Assembly (NCBI RefSeq): GCF_032362555.1
Contig: NC_083506.1
Coordinates: forward strand, 9,471,501-9,535,500
From: Amyelois transitella
Taxonomy: Eukaryota > Arthropoda > Insecta > Lepidoptera > Pyralidae
DNA length: 64,000 bases
Direction of reading: 5' to 3'
The notes under the pieces were generated by a model, which worked only from the letters and a program-made list of their open reading frames with translations, was not told where the DNA came from and did no database searches. Positions 36,397 through 64,000 of the stretch are shown here, one piece after another (position 1 is the first letter of the stretch; the number at the start of each line of letters is the position of its first letter). Position numbers and translations under genes: made by a program.

Positions 36397-39300
36397 TTAC
36401 ACAATAATGTCTTCGTTGTCTTCTAGAGCCAGTTCACTGATGTTTACATACTCGGGATTGTTCGAGAACACGTCCACAAGTTGACTAAAGGTGGGCCTTT
36501 GGTCAGGGTTATAGGCCCAGCAGTCCAGCATCACTTGGTAGATCTCGTCGGGACAGTCCTCTGGCCTGTCGAGACGTTTGCCGCTTTCAACTAATTGTAT
36601 TGCCTGGAGGAAATATTTAAAATTAATAAACCTAAAGTTTCGAAAAAATCAAATATTACAAAGCACGTATAATAGTTTATTATTTAACGAACACCGAGCT
36701 TTGAAAAAAATATATTCGACATGTTCTTTGTGAAACTTTAAATCAAATGAAGACGCCAAATTATCTTTAACAGTCCTCGAATATTGACGTTAATGGATAA
36801 GATTGCAACCACGACTTAAATATTTAAACAAGATGTAAAATTACAATTACTTACCTCTATCCCCCTCATATCTCCGTAGGGCTGCTTCCCATAGGAGAAC
36901 ATTTCCCACAACGTGACTCCGTAGCTCCACACATCGGAGGCGTGGCTGAAAGTGCCGTAGTTGTAGGACTCCGGCGCGTACCACTTGATGGGCCACTTGC
37001 CGCCGCGGCGCGCCTTGTAGTACGAACTGTCGGCGGATAAAGCGCGGGAGAGGCCGAAGTCGCTGATTTTGACTTGATGTCTGTAGGAAATAATGGTAAA
37101 TGTGACAATTTTTCATGAATTAATGGTGCTGATTTTGAAATTCAAAGGTGAAAAGACGCGAGATTTAAAAGTTTGATTTAGAAGAGTTCGGTCCGCTTTC
37201 CATGAGAGAGTAGTTACGCAAACAGCTGCTTACTTCTATAGTTCAATTGAGAAAACTGCTTACGTTATAAGCATATGCTTATATAGTCTTTTCAGTACAA
37301 CTATATTTTGGGACTATTACTTGGCACTAGAATGTTAGTCGGTAAAATACTCGAGTTATCATTTTCCTGGTAAAATTTCAAAATTTACGATAATCACGAA
37401 TTATTTGAACTTTTCTTACTTATCTGATAACAAACATGAGATTGAGTTTACTTTCTTTACGGAAATCTGTTATAAATATGTTCGATAATCATCGATAAAA
37501 TGTGTTGCACCTGTCGGCCAGCAGGATGTTCCTGGCGGCGAGGTCGCGGTGCACGAAGCGCGCGCGCTCCAGGTAGCGCATGCCGGCCGCCACCTGGCGC
37601 GCCCAGCGCCGCAGCGAGCGTCGGCCCGCGCGCGCCGGCCCGCCGCCCAGCGCGCGCAGCAGCGAGCCCAGCGGCACCAGCTCTTGCACCATGGCCAGCG
37701 GCGGACCCTGCCCGCACACATATCAAGTAGTGATGTGCCGGATCGTTAAAAATGTATATCCGCGGATACGGATCCGAATATATATTTAGTGTCAAAATCC
37801 GGGTATACGAATACGGATCTATTTTTTAGTGTCGGCGCACGGAATTGTTTACGATCCTCATCGTAATAGACTTATGGGGGACAAAGCTGCCAAGTTACTC
37901 TTTTTTTGAAATACAATTTACCATTACTTAATTTTAATTATGATTGTTTAAAGTTGTATAGCGCACTGGCCGCTAAGAAAGTATGTAAATAAATATTAGA
38001 TGTGTGTTATTATAGTATCTACTTGTACGTTATTTATTTTATTTTAGTCACGATACATTATTGTTTCCAATAACAGAATTAGTTCTATTTAAAAAAGATT
38101 ATAGTTACAGAAGTTGTTTATTGTGCAATGAGTATAAAATATTGTCAAAATAATGTTCCACAGCTTATAGATCGAATTAATTTGAAGATTCTGTAGATAA
38201 ATTATAAATTTCTACTTTATTTTATTTTCATTTTAATGCATATGTCTTTATACATTTCGGTTAGCTATCTTAAAACTTGTATTGTTTAGTGTTAACATGG
38301 TGTTTGCGTTTTTAAGATGATATTGTTTAAACGAAGAAATCAAAGTATTATTTCTTAACTGATGTAATTATTAATACAGTCCACTAGTTTTAAATGGTCA
38401 GGATACCTACACTACAAACAATGTAGGTACATACAATTTCATAAGTTTTTGTTACAAAAGGATGTTTCACTGTCGTCTTATGATGAATAATAATATTTTT
38501 AAGTTTAGTTTGAGATTCTGTATGTAAGTTCATGTAATTTGAATATGAAGATTAAGACCTGTAATGTTTCTTATTGTAATAGTTTATATTAAGTCAGTCT
38601 ATTTGAGTTCATGAATTGAAACTTTTAAGTTACGTGCCTGATTGTATTTATAAAATGAAATATGACGAGCTTCTTTTGTTAATTTTCACAACAATGACTT
38701 AAGACGAACTATAGTTAGGATTGTTTTTATGTTTTAAGATTTTTTAATATAGTTTTCTTTATTTTTACCAACACACAGTTTTTTATTTTACATCCCGGCT
38801 AATTATCTAAATATTTGGTCCTTACGCGCCGAATTGTAGTAACCAGTGGTAGAATATTTAAGCAAAGTTTTTCGTGTAAGTGCCGGGGTAAAGGAAGCAG
38901 TAGGTCTTCGACGGTGATACCAGGCGCTGCAATAGCGGGGCTTTGGAGGTATAGCATCAGCATCATTGAGCGAAGTCTACTCCCGCAGTAGTGCGGCGGA
39001 AGAGATCGTGTGTTGGTAAAAGAACAGAGCCGAGCCGTGCGTGAGTAATACAAACATAACAATTTAAGTGATTTTATATAACAATGGAGCTTATAAACGT
39101 GCAAAATAATATTATGATACAATTAAAAAAGTCCAAAGTTAACTTTCAAAAGAGTCCTAAGGATAGATTGTCAAAATCATACATTGAAACGAGGCTGCAA
39201 GTTATAGAAGCAAAATGGACTGAATTTACAGCAAACCACTATAAACTTTTACAAATAAAGGAATTATCAGACTGTAGTTATTTCAAGGACTCACTGTATG

Positions 39301-40076
39301 ACGACATGGAGGAATTTTATATCGAGTTCAAATCAGAGTTAAAAGATTTAGTAGCAAAATTGTGCAATCCAAATCAAGACTTAGTTACATCCGAGTCGTC
39401 GTCGTTCAACACTGCATTTAGTAACAGAGGTAACGTGAAGCTGCCGAAAATATCCATACCAGTTTTCTCAGGAAGATATACAGAGTGGATGACGTTTCGG
39501 GATCTCTTTATTTCATTAGTTCATAACAATAGTGCCATTGACGACGTGCAGAAACTACATTATTTAAAGGGAAGTATCACCGGGGAGGCAGAGCAACTGC
39601 TACGTCATATTCCAATTACAAATGAAAATTACTCGCAATGTTGGTCGATGTTAGAGAGCAGGTATGACAATAAACAATATTTAGTGAACTGCATATTAAA
39701 TGGGTTTTTTAGTAAAAAGAAGATAGAAACAGAGTCTGCCACCGCCATTAAAGATTTATTAGATAGCACATTAGATATGTTAAACGGAATAAAGAACTTG
39801 GGTATTGATGTACAGTCTTGGGATATTTTAGTTATATATTTTGTTAGTTTAAGGTTAGATCAAGAGTCTCGTAAGCAATCTTTTGTAAGCGAAATATCTT
39901 CTCAGTCGAACCAATTGCCTAATTTTATACAGTTTAAGGAGTTCTTAGAAAAAAGATATCATTCATTAGAATTTTTTAGTGTCCGACCGAAGGTCTATTT
40001 TTGGCCGAAGCCGAAGCCGAAGGTTTATATTCTCTCAGCACTCAGTAATTAATTTTGTTCAATATTGTCTACAACA

Positions 40077-40107
<31 letters not shown>

Positions 40108-43100
40108 GGTCACGTCTATATCCCTTGCGGGGTAGACAGAGCCAATAGTCTTGAAAAGACTGAATGGCCACGTTCAGCTATTTGGCTTAATGATAGAATT
40201 GAGATTCAAATAGTGACAGGTTGCTAGCCCATCGCCTTAAAAGAATCCCAAGTTTGTAAGCCTATCCCTTAGTCGCCTTTTACGACATCCATGGGAAAGA
40301 GATGGAGTAGTCCTATTCTTTTTTGTATTGGTGCTGGGAACCACACGGCACTATACTATATTGTCTACAAGCTACAATTAATATTAAAATTATTTCAAAA
40401 CCTCAATATTGAAGGTTTATATATTGACTGTCTCATATAGAAGTTGATATATCATAGAGATGGTTGGTTTAGAGATAAATAAAAGTTAACCAGAGAGCTG
40501 ACTAGGATCAGATGCCAGGATGGTAGTGTTGTGAAAGGAGAAGAATGTGTGCTAAAGATATGGAAGGACTATTTTGAAAGTTTATTTGAAAAAAAGGAAG
40601 AAAATAAGAAAGAGTTCTGCTATAGCGAAGAAAAAGAGAATGAGATGGAAGGCGAAATTGAAATGTTTGAAATTGTGGAAGCACTTAAGAGTATGAAAGC
40701 GGGTAAGGCTGCTGGGTATGATAGAGTGTCGGTCGAGATGCTAAAAGCAGGAAAAGGCGTCGTAGCTAGACAGTTGTACTGCCTTTTCAATTTGTGTTGG
40801 AGAAGCGGCCGAGTACCAAAAGATTGGTGTAAGGCGGTTATCGTGCCACTTTATAAAGGAAAAGGGTCACAAATGGACTGCAAAAATTATCGTGGTATAA
40901 GCCTGCTTAGCGTTGTCGGCAAATTGTATGCTAAGGTATTGATTAATAGAGTCAGGAATGAAACTGATGACAAAATATGGGATGCTCAAGCGGGATTTCG
41001 AAAGGGAATGGGATGTACTGATCAGGTCTTTTCTTTGCGGTGCATAGCCGAAAAGTTTTTGGCCAAGAGTCAAAAAGTCTACTGCACATTCGTGGATTTG
41101 GAAAAGGCCTATGACAGAGTTGAGAGGATTGAATTGTGGTCAGCACTTTCTATGCATGGGGTGAGCAGTCTCTTAATACGAGCACTGAAATCCTTATATG
41201 AGGATTCGAGTGCTTGTGTCAGGATAAACGGAGCGCACACTGAGTGGTTTAAGATTGAGAAAGGCGTTAGGCAAGGATGTGTTGCGTCACCGTGACTGTT
41301 CAACCTATTTATGGATATTTGTTTGACAGATTTGAAAGAGTCTGAAAGTAGATTAAGGATGAATGAGTTACTCGTCAAATGTCTGCTCTATACCGACGAT
41401 CAGGTTATACTGGCGTCATCAGCGGAGGAGTTACAGGAGATGGTAAACTGTATGCATGAAGCTTTAAAAGAGAAAGGAATGAAAGTGAACGTAAGTAAAA
41501 CTAAAACACTGGTTTTTGAAATGGAGAAAGTAATGACAGCATGTAATATTTTGATTGGAGGAGAAAAAGTTGAGCAAGTGAAAGAGTTTGTATATCTAGG
41601 ATCAAAGTTTACATCATATGGCAAGTGTGATAGTGATATTGAAAGGAGAGTGAACGCGGGGAACATGGTGAATGGAGCTTTGCATGCTTTTATGAGCATC
41701 AGAATCTATCCAAAAAGGCTCGACTGGCTGTGCACAGGGGCGTGTTGGTCCTGTATGGGAGTGAAAGTTGGGTATGGCAAAAGAAGCATGAAAACAGAAT
41801 AAATGCAGTGGAAATGAGAGCGTTAAGGAGTATGATGGGTGTGAAATTCAGTGACAGGATAAGGAACAGCGTGATAAGGGAATGTTGTGATGTGAAAGAA
41901 GATGTAGTTACAGGAATAGAAAAGGGTATGTTAAGATGGTTCGGTCATGTGGAAAGGATGAATGAAAGCAGGTTGACTAAGCCGATATACAAGGAGAGTG
42001 TGGAGGGAAAGGTCGGAGTGGGAAGACCTAGACGAACGTATCTTAATCAAATTAAGGACGTCCTGGTTAAGGGTCAGGTCAAAAGTACCCGAAACCGCCG
42101 AGCTTGTATCAAGAGAGTTATGAATGTGGATGAAGCGAAGGAAGTATGCAGAGATCGTGGCAAGTGGAAAGAGGTAGTCTCTGCCTACCCCTCCGGGAAA
42201 GAGGCGTGATTTTATGTATGTATGTATAAAAGTTTGATTTTGTGATTTACCTACTGGTAAAAAATAATGATTTGATTTCTTTATTATGTAATTGAATTAC
42301 AGTAATTCACAAATTACAATTAGACCAATCAGTCTTTGTTTTACTCGACTAGACCAAAACTAGACTAATAAATAAAATAAACAAACACTAACTTCTTACT
42401 AAATAATTAATTGTTGGAGTGTTTTGTTTTGAATGTGATAAACACAAATTCAATACAAAACACTCGTTTAAATACACGTACGGACTTGTTTGGATGCATG
42501 CAATCAGCAATGTGATATTTTGACAGTGACTCCCCGCCGCCTCATGACTTTCGTAACAGTTCGTTCAATCTCGACGGTCGCTCGGACCTTCGGCGAAACC
42601 TTCGGCTTCGGTCGGGTTTTGGGCCGAAGCCGAATGCTTCGCCGAAGGTGGATTTTTTGGCCGAAGGTGGCCGAAGCCGAAGCCGAAGCCGAAGCTTCGG
42701 TCGGACACTAGAATTTTTAGACCCCAAAGTAAATGATTTTAACAAAACTAAAGATAAAAATAGTAACATGATTAATAATTCCTCAAAAATTGTAACTATG
42801 TTCGAAAAAGAAATAGTTTGTATATATTGTAAAGGTAGTCATAGCCTTTGTAACTGTAACGATTTTTCTAATTTAGAGTACAGCGCAAGGCGTCAGTTCG
42901 CTGAAGTTAATCGAATATGTTATAACTGTCTTGTGCCAAATCATTCAGCGAAATATTGCCGCAGTACAACTTACTGTGGCACGTGTAAAGGGAGACATCA
43001 TTCTCTCTTACATCAATATTCAGTAAATAGATTAAAAGAACATAGAACTGAAAGTGAGAATGATGATCAGTGCCAAGTTAACCTTGACTCACCTACATTG

Positions 43101-46100
43101 TTAGAAGAGAATGTTAAACACATTAGCAGTCACCTCTCACGAGGAAATACAAATCATGTCTTGCTTCCCACAGCTTTAGTCACAACCGAAACTAATAAAA
43201 ATCAAAGACGCACTCTTCGAGCTCTAGTCGATCAATGTTCGGAAACTTCATTCGTTACAGAAGGCATGGCAAAACAGCTGGGGTTGAGGAAGTTTTATTC
43301 AAACTGTAGGGTTTCGGGTTTAGGTTGTGGCAAAAGTATTAATTCAAGAGCTATGGTTATTTTACCAATACGTTCTCTTATTAGACCTGATTATATAAGA
43401 AATGTTAAAGCCTATGTAATTGATAGTATAACCACTATTGTTCCATCCAAGACAATTGGGATTTCTTGGGCAGCACTTAATACCCTAAAGTTAGCTGATC
43501 CTAAATATCATACACCTAACACAATCGATGTTCTGTTAGGTGCTGAGGTTTACAGCAACATTATTAGAGAAGGTCTCCTCAAATCACCCTTTGGAACTGC
43601 GATCGCCCAAAACACAACATTAGGGTGGATAATAAGTGGCAAAGTAAAACATCTCATAGACAAAGTTGTTATAATAAATGTGTAAATATTAATTAATGTT
43701 TTGTATAACAGATTACAATAATTAGGATAAGATACATATATGTTTTGGAATTTAAAACAGTAAAGGAATTAGATTATTCAAAGAACTTGAATTTATACTT
43801 CAGTAGGTATTTTTAATCTGGAACTGTTGATTGACTGTTAATTTCGGATAATGTTTTAAATAAGTGTTAAAAAATGTGGTGTAAATATGGATATATATAT
43901 TTGATGTAACATGCTTATTAATTACCTAAGTTCCATGATATTTGGAACTTACACTAGTTAGTAGACTACTGATTCTCTAAAATATTCCGCTTATAGTATA
44001 TACCGTTAGTGTACATGATTCATTACTTAAATTCTCCAGTAAATAGTCTAGCTAGAGTTATTATCATTGACGAAGGAAATTATTAACCTACTCATTACTT
44101 TTGTTCTTTTTTAATCATTCTTTATTATACAGTCCACTTGTTAAGAAAATTAATGTTTCATTGAACAAAGTTACAATTATTTTTATATGTATAATAATAA
44201 GACTTTTACTTAGTGTTTGATTTGTTTATATAGAAAAATGACAATTTAATTGGATAAATGAACTGTGCAACTGAACTGAACCCTAAGGGAAATTAGACAT
44301 TTTGTACTTTGAATTTTTTGATATACTAAGTATAGTTAGCTATGGCAGGCAGTTAGATTGAAAGACTGTCGTCTTTGGCGGGCAGAATGTTTAAAGTTGT
44401 ATAGCGCACTGGCCGCTAAGAAAAAAAGTAAATTTTTGTAAAATGAAATATGACGAGCTTCTTTTGTTAATTTTCACAACAATGACTTAAGACGAATTAA
44501 AGTTAGGATTGTTTTTATGTTTTAAGATTTTTTAATATAGTTTTCTTTATTTTTACCAACACACAGTTTTTTATTTTACATCCCGGCTAATTATCTAAAT
44601 AATGATTGATAATTTATTCAAGTTCCTGTAATTTTCTTGTGTTCACTTGTGTCATCTAATATTTACACTTAATATAGCAAGCAGTATTAATTTACTTTAT
44701 TAGAACAGTCATTCAATTAGAATTTATTTTTAGTTTTCTCATCATCTCATAGTTATTAAAGTGATGCTATAAATTATAATTTTAATGTTTTATGGAATTT
44801 AATAGTGTTTTCATTCTCCCTAATACAATTACAAAATAAAATTAATGTAAAAGATCCGTAAAAAACCTTGCGAAAAATAACGGATACGGATCTTAATTGT
44901 CCCTCGGATATCCACGGATACGGATATACGGAACATCACTAATATCAAGTTATTTGTGAGTCACAGGCGTGGAATATTCAGACTATGGTCAAACGCATTC
45001 TTACATACATACATAATAGACATGTCTATATCCCGTAAGGGATGCCTATATGCCTATATCCCTGTGTAAACAGGGATAAGACTGAAAGCCCACGTTCAGC
45101 TGCTTGGCTTCATGATGGATGTAAGATTCAAATAGTGACAGGTTGCTAGCCTTATTCTTATAATTTATTACGCTGAGGAAAACATCTTGAGAAACCTATA
45201 AGAAATGCTATACTTTCACTCACCAATGAAACTCCAATGAGCCGCACTATACAAGGATGTCTCAAGGCCATCATCAGCTTGGCCTCGGCTAGGAACTCTT
45301 CTTTATTGGTATCAGTATGCTGCACATGTAACGTCTTGACCGCCACTTGTATTGGCGGCTGATCGGGCGCATTGTACGTGGCGTGGAGAACGGAACCGAA
45401 TTCACCCTCGCCGAGTACAGGGCCGAGCGTCAACTCGCTCATAGGGATGAATTCTGAAACGTCGATAAATTTATTTACGATAATTTTGAATAATCTGTTA
45501 AAAATTATATACAGAGTGCTGAGCAAGTGATGTCTCAAATTTTAGTTTTTTTTTATGTAATTTGTTCCGAGATGCAATGATCCATGCAATGATTAGATTT
45601 GATGGAATATGCCAGGCAGTAAGGAAATGTTAGCATTACTTTAAAATTAGTTGGGAATCGCAACGGCTTCAGTAGTTTTAAAGATAGTAACGAAAATGTA
45701 TGACTGTAGTACAGAAAGAGTACTGTAGATGGCGCTAGAAAAAAAATCCAATGGCGAGGTTGACGTTAGCAATGGACGACTAGTAATGTAGTTTCTTTTT
45801 ATCTTACCTTGTAACGTAGATAACTGTCCATCAGAATTAATCGAAATCTCATTGTAATTCTCCGCTAGAGTGACAACGGCTGTATTATTTGCTGGCACTT
45901 TATACGTGTCATCGTCTTGACATTCGTTATTGTTCAGACTGTCGTTTGCGAAGTCTGACGAGAAGGAAAGGTTTCTAGTCAATAGTTCAAACGCGTTGTT
46001 GTTAGGTGAGGTGGCTGGCGACATCTTGTTGTTGTCTCCAAGGATGTCGTGTTTGACTAGGGATAGCGTCTGGTTCATGGCCGCTCGGCTCGGTGATGGT

Positions 46101-61605: not shown

Positions 61606-64000
61606 CCCTAGATTACTAACCTTATTTTTCGACGCTTATTACGAATCTTCGTCGTTTCGACTACGATATTTTTCAAAGGGCATAAAAGGTTTTTTTTAAA
61701 TAAAACATGTACATTTATATTTTTATTTTTAATGAATTATATTTATTCTTATTATTTATTGTGTTTACATAAACTAAAACAGCATATTTATTAATCAAAC
61801 AGCCTTATGAATGAGATCATAGGTTTCATGCAAAGTCAGCAACATTAACATTTTTAATGTGCTTGTTTAAGTAGTATAAACAGTAAATGTGTAAATTTTT
61901 TGAAAAAATATTAATAATAACAAATGAAATAAACTAATGAAATGAAAACAGTGGTAAAAATCTAAAGACTAAAACATTTGTGACACACGTCGAGTTTGTG
62001 CTCCCCACACAACGATTTATTGCACTTGGTGCAACTAGTTTTAGTCATCCTTCGCTTTGCAGAGGGACACAAGGCACATATTTTCCTTTTTTTTTGTATA
62101 GGAGGTACATTAGGCGCATTATTCTCTTCAGTCTCTAGTATAGCATTCGAAGTACTACTTCCTGGTATGATTAAAATTTGTCTAATTGAATCGCGCAGAC
62201 CAGTTTGAAGAGTTGGTATTGTAAGCCTTTTTTGTATGTGCGATTCAATTAACTTGTGATGTAGAGCTTTTAGGTAATCACGCCTCGATAATGGTTTTTT
62301 GTTAGCCTCTACATTGTTAGTTACATAAATAACGTAACTATTTATAAATGCAATATTGAGCATTCCGTAAAACATGCACAACGGCCAGCGCCGTGTTTTT
62401 CTGCTGCAAGAAGCAAGGGAACACATCTGGTCGAAAGTGTCTACCCCTCCTTTGGTTTGGTTGTAAAATTCAACAATTGTAGGCTTTTTAGTATTGTCAT
62501 TTATTGCGCCTTCTTCGTCACATGACGATAGTAAAAAAATTACTTTTTGGGGTTTTGGTTTGTAGGATAACAGAGTTAGTTCCTTGTCATAACAAAACAT
62601 AGCAGTTCCTGTTTTTCTCGTGCGTTCGTTTTGCAACTCCACAGGTATCTCTCTCTTATTTGCTCTTAGAGTTCCAACCAAAGTCAGTTTATATGGTTCT
62701 TTTACTAAACTTTTGGCTAGAGGTACCGAAGTGAACCAATTGTCCATAGTAATATTTCTATTTGTGCCGTGAACAGTGCGTGTTAATTTTTTTACAAAAT
62801 ATTCACCTAGTGGTACTCCATCTGTTTTAGTAAAAGAACCCAGATATGGCTCTGCATCTATCATATACTTTGTAGAATTGTCTACTGTCATAACAATTTT
62901 TATACCATATTTGTTTGGTTTGTTTGGTATATAAATGCGAAAGGGACATCTTCCTCTAAAACCTAGTAATTGTTCATCGATAGTAAGATAACTACCAGGT
63001 TTGTAATTCTCACGACATTTAGTGATGAACAGATTCCATAAATCTCGAAATGGGGCGAAAACATCAGCCAGCTTTCGTACTAGACGCGTAGATTTGTCGT
63101 CAAATCTAAGGCAGTTTATTAGGAACTCAAATCTATCACAAGACATTGTACTACGATACCGATTCCCACAAAATGTAACGTCAAATAATTCCCGAGATGG
63201 TAAATTATTGTCTTTCATAGCTGCAGATAATGTAAGTACGCCAATAAGGGCTCTAATTTCATCAGCATCCGTCGGTCTCTGAGTAGCTTTTATATTTTTG
63301 TATTTTTGGGACTTCATTTCTATTTCTGCATTGGTATGAGTCACAATGATGTCAATCATGTCATTAGTCATAAAAAATGAAAAGCATTGCAGAGGGTCTA
63401 ATTCATTTTTGCAGGAACGTATTGGTCCAGGTCTAACATGAACTATATTCCTTGAAGCTATTCTGCTTTTTGACCTGGACTTTTGTGATGACCATTTGTG
63501 TTTGTCTTTTCCACGAAGAATGGTACGTGGCGGTTGTAATATCAAGTCACTGGATAGTACTGAAGAACTAGGTATCGAGCCTTCAACAGATTGTAAGGGA
63601 GAAGAATTACCACTTATCTGAACATCTTGACCTGGAATTTGCTGCTGGTTCATATTAGAAACTTCATCTTCTTCATCAGTTTCATAAGCAGGATCAGCCT
63701 CAAGATGGTCTTCTCTCTCACTACCTGACGAGTATTCATTATCGCTGTCTTCTTGCGATAATATCTGGCGAATTAATTCTAAAACAATACAATAATAAAT
63801 AGAATTAAATAAAAACAAAACATAAATAAAACCAATAAAAAAATAAGTCAATAAAACAAAAACATAATTCAAATATACACCAACTCAATAGTACAAAATG
63901 TTACGTTATTACTAACCTTCGTCGATGCGACGAGCCATGGTTGCTAAAATGGCGCTCACGGGCACGCTGCTCCCGAAACACTACCGTCCGTCGCGGGGGC
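61606..64000 (-). mobile_element. piggyBac-type DNA transposon, right side cut by the window
   Basis: The element contains the transposase at 61962-63938. A candidate outer end lies at 61606 (CCCTAGATTACTAAC), which resembles piggyBac ends that begin CCCTAG. The adjoining ATAA is one base off the expected TTAA target, so this end is tentative. The other end is outside the window. Confidence 0.55.
61962..63938 (-). CDS. piggyBac transposase, two exons, apparently intact
   Basis: DDE/D-type transposase that cuts and pastes DNA at TTAA sites (family knowledge). Exon 1 is 63917-63938 (MARRIDE plus one base). An intron with GT-AG ends spans 63779-63916 (138 bp). Exon 2 is 61962-63778. The joined product is 612 aa, close to the family's usual 590-600. 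An acidic N-terminus (EDSDNEYSSGSERED) precedes the core. The catalytic aspartates are D275 in TIDEQLLGFRGRC, D353 in NITMDNWFTSVPLAKSL and D454 in NQTKGGVDTFDQM, with the same spacing as in the cabbage looper enzyme. The C-terminus is a Cys-rich zinc-binding domain (CALCPSAKRRM to CHKCF). No frameshift or stop interrupts it. Reading straight through the intron gives a longer 636-residue frame with an unlikely hydrophobic start, so the spliced start is preferred. Confidence 0.92.

Follow-up and report, generated by a model that had tools for sequence, protein, structure and literature searches.

Target-site duplications and the order of insertion in a transposon nest: a hAT transposon that carries a LINE in the moth Amyelois transitella

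Nest-based chronologies of transposable elements (TEs), as built with TinT (PMC3014933) and TRANScendence (PMC5657132), take an inserted element to be younger than the element that hosts it, according to the available portions of these papers. A retroelement can also travel inside a DNA transposon. The nearest such passenger case among the literature matches listed is MER6, a miniature inverted-repeat transposable element (MITE) and Tc1/Mariner derivative that carries V-SINE, is no longer active and is present in hundreds of copies (PMC6887750, in the excerpt available). In Helicoverpa armigera the short interspersed element (SINE) HaSE1 is described with a partner long interspersed element (LINE), HaRTE1 (PMC3272025), and LINEs of the RTE clade are described as having a short 3′ untranslated region that ends in simple repeats (PMC2887409), again in the excerpts available. 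Here we examine a 64-kb stretch of the genome of the moth Amyelois transitella (C2:9471501-9535500, hereafter the window), in which an earlier note had described five TEs nested in the intron of a kinase gene: a hAT transposon (hAT1), a BEL/Pao element within it, a second hAT transposon (hAT2) within the gag gene of the latter, and a SINE and a LINE within hAT2. Each insertion had been ordered relative to the next by its target-site duplication (TSD). Relatives of every element were drawn from the same genome, in comparisons that covered 327 Mb on 33 contigs.

We find that hAT2 and the LINE form a composite whose two parts have moved together in at least six transpositions. The best 40 of 1710 candidates were scored in the LINE search, and a copy on contig C10 aligned along the full query at 99%, with hAT2 flanks on both sides. 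A search with hAT2 gave five further copies in which the LINE occupies this same junction, and the 3′ LINE/hAT2 junction is found at exactly seven places in the genome (two mismatches or fewer), with none in a reversed control. The 8-bp TSDs around the seven composites all differ, being GAATTTTT in the window, GTAATCAT on C10, GGGATTTG on C9, AAAATTAC on C4, ATAAACAC on C12, ATAAAAAC on C22 and ATTATTAA on C21. Copies of the host transposon that inserted independently thus have the same retroelement insertion in common (seven of seven junctions, seven TSDs), and the different TSDs also argue against segmental duplication as the source of the composites. The 5′ truncation point of the LINE is identical in all seven, with one adjacent base changed or missing in C4 and C12. 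The common junction and truncation point, taken with the seven different TSDs, indicate a single entry of the LINE into hAT2, followed by travel as a passenger. In two LINE-free hAT2 copies, on C20 and C32, the LINE target occurs once, and a third LINE-free candidate, on C18, is hAT2-like on its right side only.

Fifteen LINE substitutions are common to the window and C10 copies and absent from eight other LINE copies, which make up the non-composite comparison out of the 1710 candidates. Eight of the 15 occur in all seven composites; for C21, three of these eight were read from a separate alignment, its row in the main one being SINE at those places. A 9-bp LINE deletion is present in six of the seven composites. 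A 1-bp deletion groups the window with C10, and a 32-bp deletion groups the other five. Divergence between pairs of composites is 0.1-1.9%. A hot spot in hAT2 that received the LINE repeatedly would account for the recurrence itself and for nothing else, and this explanation is refuted by the same truncation point, the same LINE TSD and the eight derived substitutions in all seven copies, so that we give it practically no credence.

The earlier note had taken the TSD of the LINE to place its insertion after the arrival of hAT2 in gag. That dating fails, as the same insertion is present in six other hAT2 copies with different TSDs: hAT elements move by cut-and-paste, so the LINE was carried along by hAT2, and because its host is mobile the LINE TSD is silent on whether the LINE came before or after the landing in gag. 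Most likely it came before, which reverses the earlier order. The site of the SINE is uninterrupted at 152 places in the genome (two mismatches or fewer; none in a reversed control) and is empty in six of the six other hAT2+LINE composites. Since none of the six has the SINE there, its insertion postdates the separation of the window copy from C10 and most likely took place at the present locus.

The account that we favour, and hold to be very probable, is that the composite moved as a unit, with the LINE aboard before the landing in gag and the SINE added last. The sequence of events would begin with the entry of hAT1 into the intron, followed by that of the BEL-like element into hAT1. The LINE would have entered hAT2 elsewhere, at a time unordered relative to these two steps, and the composite would have spread by hAT transposase supplied in trans until it reached the BEL gag in one copy; the SINE would then have entered this copy, likely as the final event. 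The chronology given in the earlier note thus most likely stands for hAT1, BEL, hAT2 and SINE, and gives way at the LINE step.

Several observations weigh against our account. The C4 composite (L053) lacks the 9-bp LINE deletion, as well as two substitutions common to the others, perhaps through gene conversion by another LINE copy. The place of this deletion may be deletion-prone, and two of the eight other LINE copies (L032 and L034) have different small deletions there. The clade of the five composites other than the window and C10 has a bootstrap of 51 on substitutions and depends on the 32-bp deletion. The SINE TSD does not by itself show that the SINE followed the landing in gag. Divergence dating, as proposed in the earlier note, was applied to the composites and to the long terminal repeats (LTRs) of the BEL-like element. 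The LTRs differ at 2/198 positions (1.0%, range 0.1-3.7) without four mismatches beside an inserted block, and at 6/212 (2.8%) with them; the window differs from C10 at 11/1438 positions (0.76%, 0.38-1.37) and from C9 at 16/1406 (1.14%, 0.65-1.85). These values overlap and are not decisive for the order of the LINE step.

The gag copy could also be the founder of the other six, a copy having been left behind by repair, in which case the order in the earlier note would hold: an empty hAT2 lands in gag, the LINE enters there, and, before the SINE arrives, this copy transposes to found the six others while the sister chromatid serves to restore the donor. The nesting of TSDs at the locus agrees with such a history, as does the overlap of LTR and composite divergences. 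However, it requires that one particular copy of the seven was the source of all others, and the window and C10 have derived changes that are absent from the other five, so that the line of those five must have left before the changes arose. We regard this history as improbable, and prefer the one in which the composite arrived in gag with the LINE already aboard.

The remaining junctions of the nest were assessed in the same manner (Table 1). All five TSDs reported in the earlier note are present as exact copies at the element edges. Its element classes, junctions and nesting are right, and uninterrupted relatives support four of the junctions (BEL/hAT1, hAT2/gag, SINE/hAT2 and LINE/hAT2). 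As read from the sequence, the 8-bp TSD of the window copy and the short terminal inverted repeats (TIRs; TAGTGATGT) at both ends show that hAT1 inserted into the intron; its own sequence comprises 552 bp (37728-37944 and 44607-44941). Four hAT1 relatives match both sides of the BEL site. The left and right matches meet in three of them, with an overlap of 5 bp that is bounded by the start of the right-hand query at 44603 (C2:12920253-12920257, C11:8475591-8475595 and C13:5952458-5952462), and two of these three were aligned across the site; in the fourth, on C6, the left match ends 13 bases before the site. The string common to both sides is ATGATT, which is ATGAT plus one chance base provided that TG opens the LTR, as it does in the relatives. 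The relatives show that a BEL-like LTR element sits in hAT1.

hAT2 likewise has short TIRs (TAGTGTCCGACCGAAG) at both ends. Three of three aligned gag relatives are continuous across the hAT2 site and have the 8-mer once, as GAATTTTT in L045 and L041 and as GAATTTCT in L042. This shows that hAT2 lies in the gag of the BEL-like element, where it holds a single LINE and a single SINE. Positions 42282-42456 of the window, 175 bp of hAT2, are present in the composites and absent from the many short hAT2 copies listed, probably by deletion in the short form. An assembly artefact, with elements collapsed or misjoined, would be favoured by the abundance of repeats and by the nest being known from assembled sequence alone; it is very unlikely given the TSDs at all five junctions and the uninterrupted relatives for each inner junction.

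The reverse transcriptase (RT) of the LINE matches PF00078 (E=4.7e-20) as well as L1 ORF2 and R2 chains. Its tail of TATG repeats is in line with the RTE clade (PMC2887409, in the excerpt available), and we provisionally call it RTE-like. The SINE and LINE types fit a moth genome. We also see a separate SINE within the LINE of the C21 composite (L051, L073), and contig C32, perhaps a sex chromosome, holds 14 of the best 40 (of 1710) LINE copies.

The BEL/Pao label given to the LTR element in the earlier note is borne out in part. The element has LTRs, a short TSD (ATGAT), a Pao-type gag (DUF1759; PF03564, E=8.2e-32) and a protease-like region, and is without pol. LTR pairs are 99-100% identical in six of the nine loci examined, and no pair was found in the other three (L040, L043 and L048). 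Where both LTRs of a relative were mapped, its length is about 3.26-3.29 kb and its LTRs measure about 215 bp. Three of three relatives examined (L041, L042 and L045) have a single long open reading frame (ORF), 628-631 aa in length; on the same strand, no other ORF of at least 100 aa lies wholly inside them, which leaves none for pol (RT, RNase H, integrase); L045 also has a 104-aa antisense ORF. As gag and a protease-like region are present but pol is absent, the window element is a non-autonomous BEL-like relative rather than a full BEL/Pao element. Its family has been recently active, to judge from LTRs that are up to 100% identical. LTR elements with gag and without pol are known from plants as TR-GAG elements; no animal case was recognised among the literature matches listed on pol-less BEL elements. 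In one relative (L046), one LTR carries at about 1434-1915 a SINE that is broadly similar in type to those above.

With a 982-bp gag-protease query we obtained six copies, including that of the window, at 98-100% identity (subfamily A) and three at 73-74% (subfamily B); five more matches are fragments or more distant. The copies examined for pol come from both subfamilies. The ratio of non-synonymous to synonymous substitution (dN/dS) was calculated over a 321-codon piece in four of the nine A and B copies. It is 0.26-0.29 when A is compared with B; the two A copies give 0.79 and the two B copies 0.46. The constraint on the frame between A and B may stem from autonomous ancestors, and the value of 0.79 within subfamily A speaks against strong present constraint.

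The LTRs of the window copy are unequal (869 bp on the left versus 214 bp on the right), so an assumption of equal lengths was rejected. The left LTR includes a block of about 655 bp whose homologue in subfamily B is the 3′ internal region; the block has three other copies at 96-97% identity. In L041 and L042, where the LTRs were mapped, the homologous block is internal and not in an LTR, as it follows the long ORF and precedes the 3′ LTR, and in L010 (the same locus as L040) a protease-like end lies upstream of it in an alignment read by eye. At one junction of the block, TAAGAAA is common to both sources, again by eye. The block was considered as a sixth nested transposon, which was rejected in view of this homology and the lack of a definable TSD. 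Template switching between co-packaged RNAs is a possible origin, as is repair with cDNA. The chimeric left LTR suggests sequence exchange between the subfamilies, and one might tentatively picture a long-lived lineage that retains no proteins of its own but capsid and protease, borrows RT and integrase, and persists as two pol-less subfamilies that exchange sequence under constraint on the frame, but we consider this rather doubtful.

Ankyrin, SH2 and tyrosine-kinase exons were identified by domain profile matches in the gene on the minus strand of the window, a set which we take to be that of Shark, and we call the host gene a Shark-type kinase. The intron runs on the minus strand from 45223 to 37708 (7516 bp), and removal of the 7222-bp nest leaves 294 bp, in agreement with the length of about 294 bp in the earlier note. 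This restored intron itself holds a repeat that had not been counted, a SINE remnant at 44996-45151. The acceptor of the kinase exon is 20 nt from the end of hAT1. By motif position, a branch-point-like CTCAC stood at 27 nt from the AG in the empty site, and the hAT1 insertion shifted it 7.2 kb away (37708-37780 region). The present candidates are TTGAT, 15 nt from the AG, which lies within the TSD and was already there before the insertion, and TTAAC, 38 nt from the AG and within the hAT1 terminus. The positions of these motifs suggest that hAT1 may now supply the branch point. Elsewhere in the window, an uninterrupted 640-aa ORF (stop to stop, 61962-63884) matches PF13843 (DDE_Tnp_1_7, of piggyBac type; E=5e-68).

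Table 1 Features of the nest and its host intron, in window positions.
Feature	Position	Strand	Evidence or remark
Shark-type kinase intron with nest	37708..45223	-	donor GTGAGT, acceptor GGGCAG, flanking kinase exons
Next kinase exon	37511..37707	-	PF07714, E=2.4e-16 over 37513-37707; edges inferred from splice consensus
SINE remnant, 156 bp, in restored 294-bp intron	44996..45151	-	oriented as the SINE in hAT2
TSD of hAT1, ATATCAAG	left 37720..37727, right 44942-44949		exact copies
hAT1, non-autonomous	37728..44941		TIR TAGTGATGT; relatives unbroken across BEL site
TSD of BEL-like element, ATGAT	left 37940..37944, right 44602-44606		exact copies
BEL-like LTR element, gag and protease-like region, without pol	37945..44601	+	PF03564, E=8.2e-32
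Left LTR, 869 bp	37945..38813	+	includes block of ~655 bp, about 37983-38646
gag, portion before hAT2	39087..39968	+	
TSD of hAT2, GAATTTTT	left 39969..39976, right 42711-42718		exact copies
hAT2, non-autonomous, holds LINE and SINE	39977..42710		TIR TAGTGTCCGACCGAAG
SINE	40075..40357	-	TSD ATATTGTCTACAA at 40062-40074 and 40358-40370
LINE, 5′-truncated, RTE-like	40488..42225	+	TSD ATAAAAGTT at 40479-40487 and 42226-42234
gag end and protease-like region, portion after hAT2	42719..43685	+	PF13650, E=5.3e-4, below gathering score
Right LTR, 214 bp	44388..44601	+	about as long as LTRs of relatives

In short, where the host can itself move, nesting of TSDs tells of structure rather than of order, and a ranking of TE ages by nesting could suffer from bias wherever passengers ride in cut-and-paste hosts. 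Copy-by-copy junction searches within one genome expose such passenger insertions, and the seven composites offer a small natural set for tracing the spread of a truncated LINE by a DNA transposon.

Comparison with known systems places the parts of the nest differently. The BEL-like element resembles the TR-GAG elements of plants as an LTR element with gag and without pol, and differs from them in its BEL-type gag, its protease-like region and its occurrence in a moth. The logic of the earlier note is that of TinT (PMC3014933) and TRANScendence (PMC5657132); here, in contrast, a mobile host makes the nesting step unsafe, a case not treated in the available portions of those papers. As described for HaSE1 and HaRTE1 (PMC3272025, excerpt), the SINE and the LINE have similar 3′ ends, which here end in TATG repeats, a likeness by description that does not imply family identity. 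The account of MER6 (PMC6887750, excerpt) is the closest of these, as there too a retroelement entered a non-autonomous DNA transposon and was then multiplied as part of its host. Carriage of a retroelement by a DNA transposon is thus already known, and hAT2 with its LINE is a further case, which differs from MER6 in having a hAT host, a 1.7-kb LINE and seven copies found, with pairs that diverge by 0.1-1.9%.

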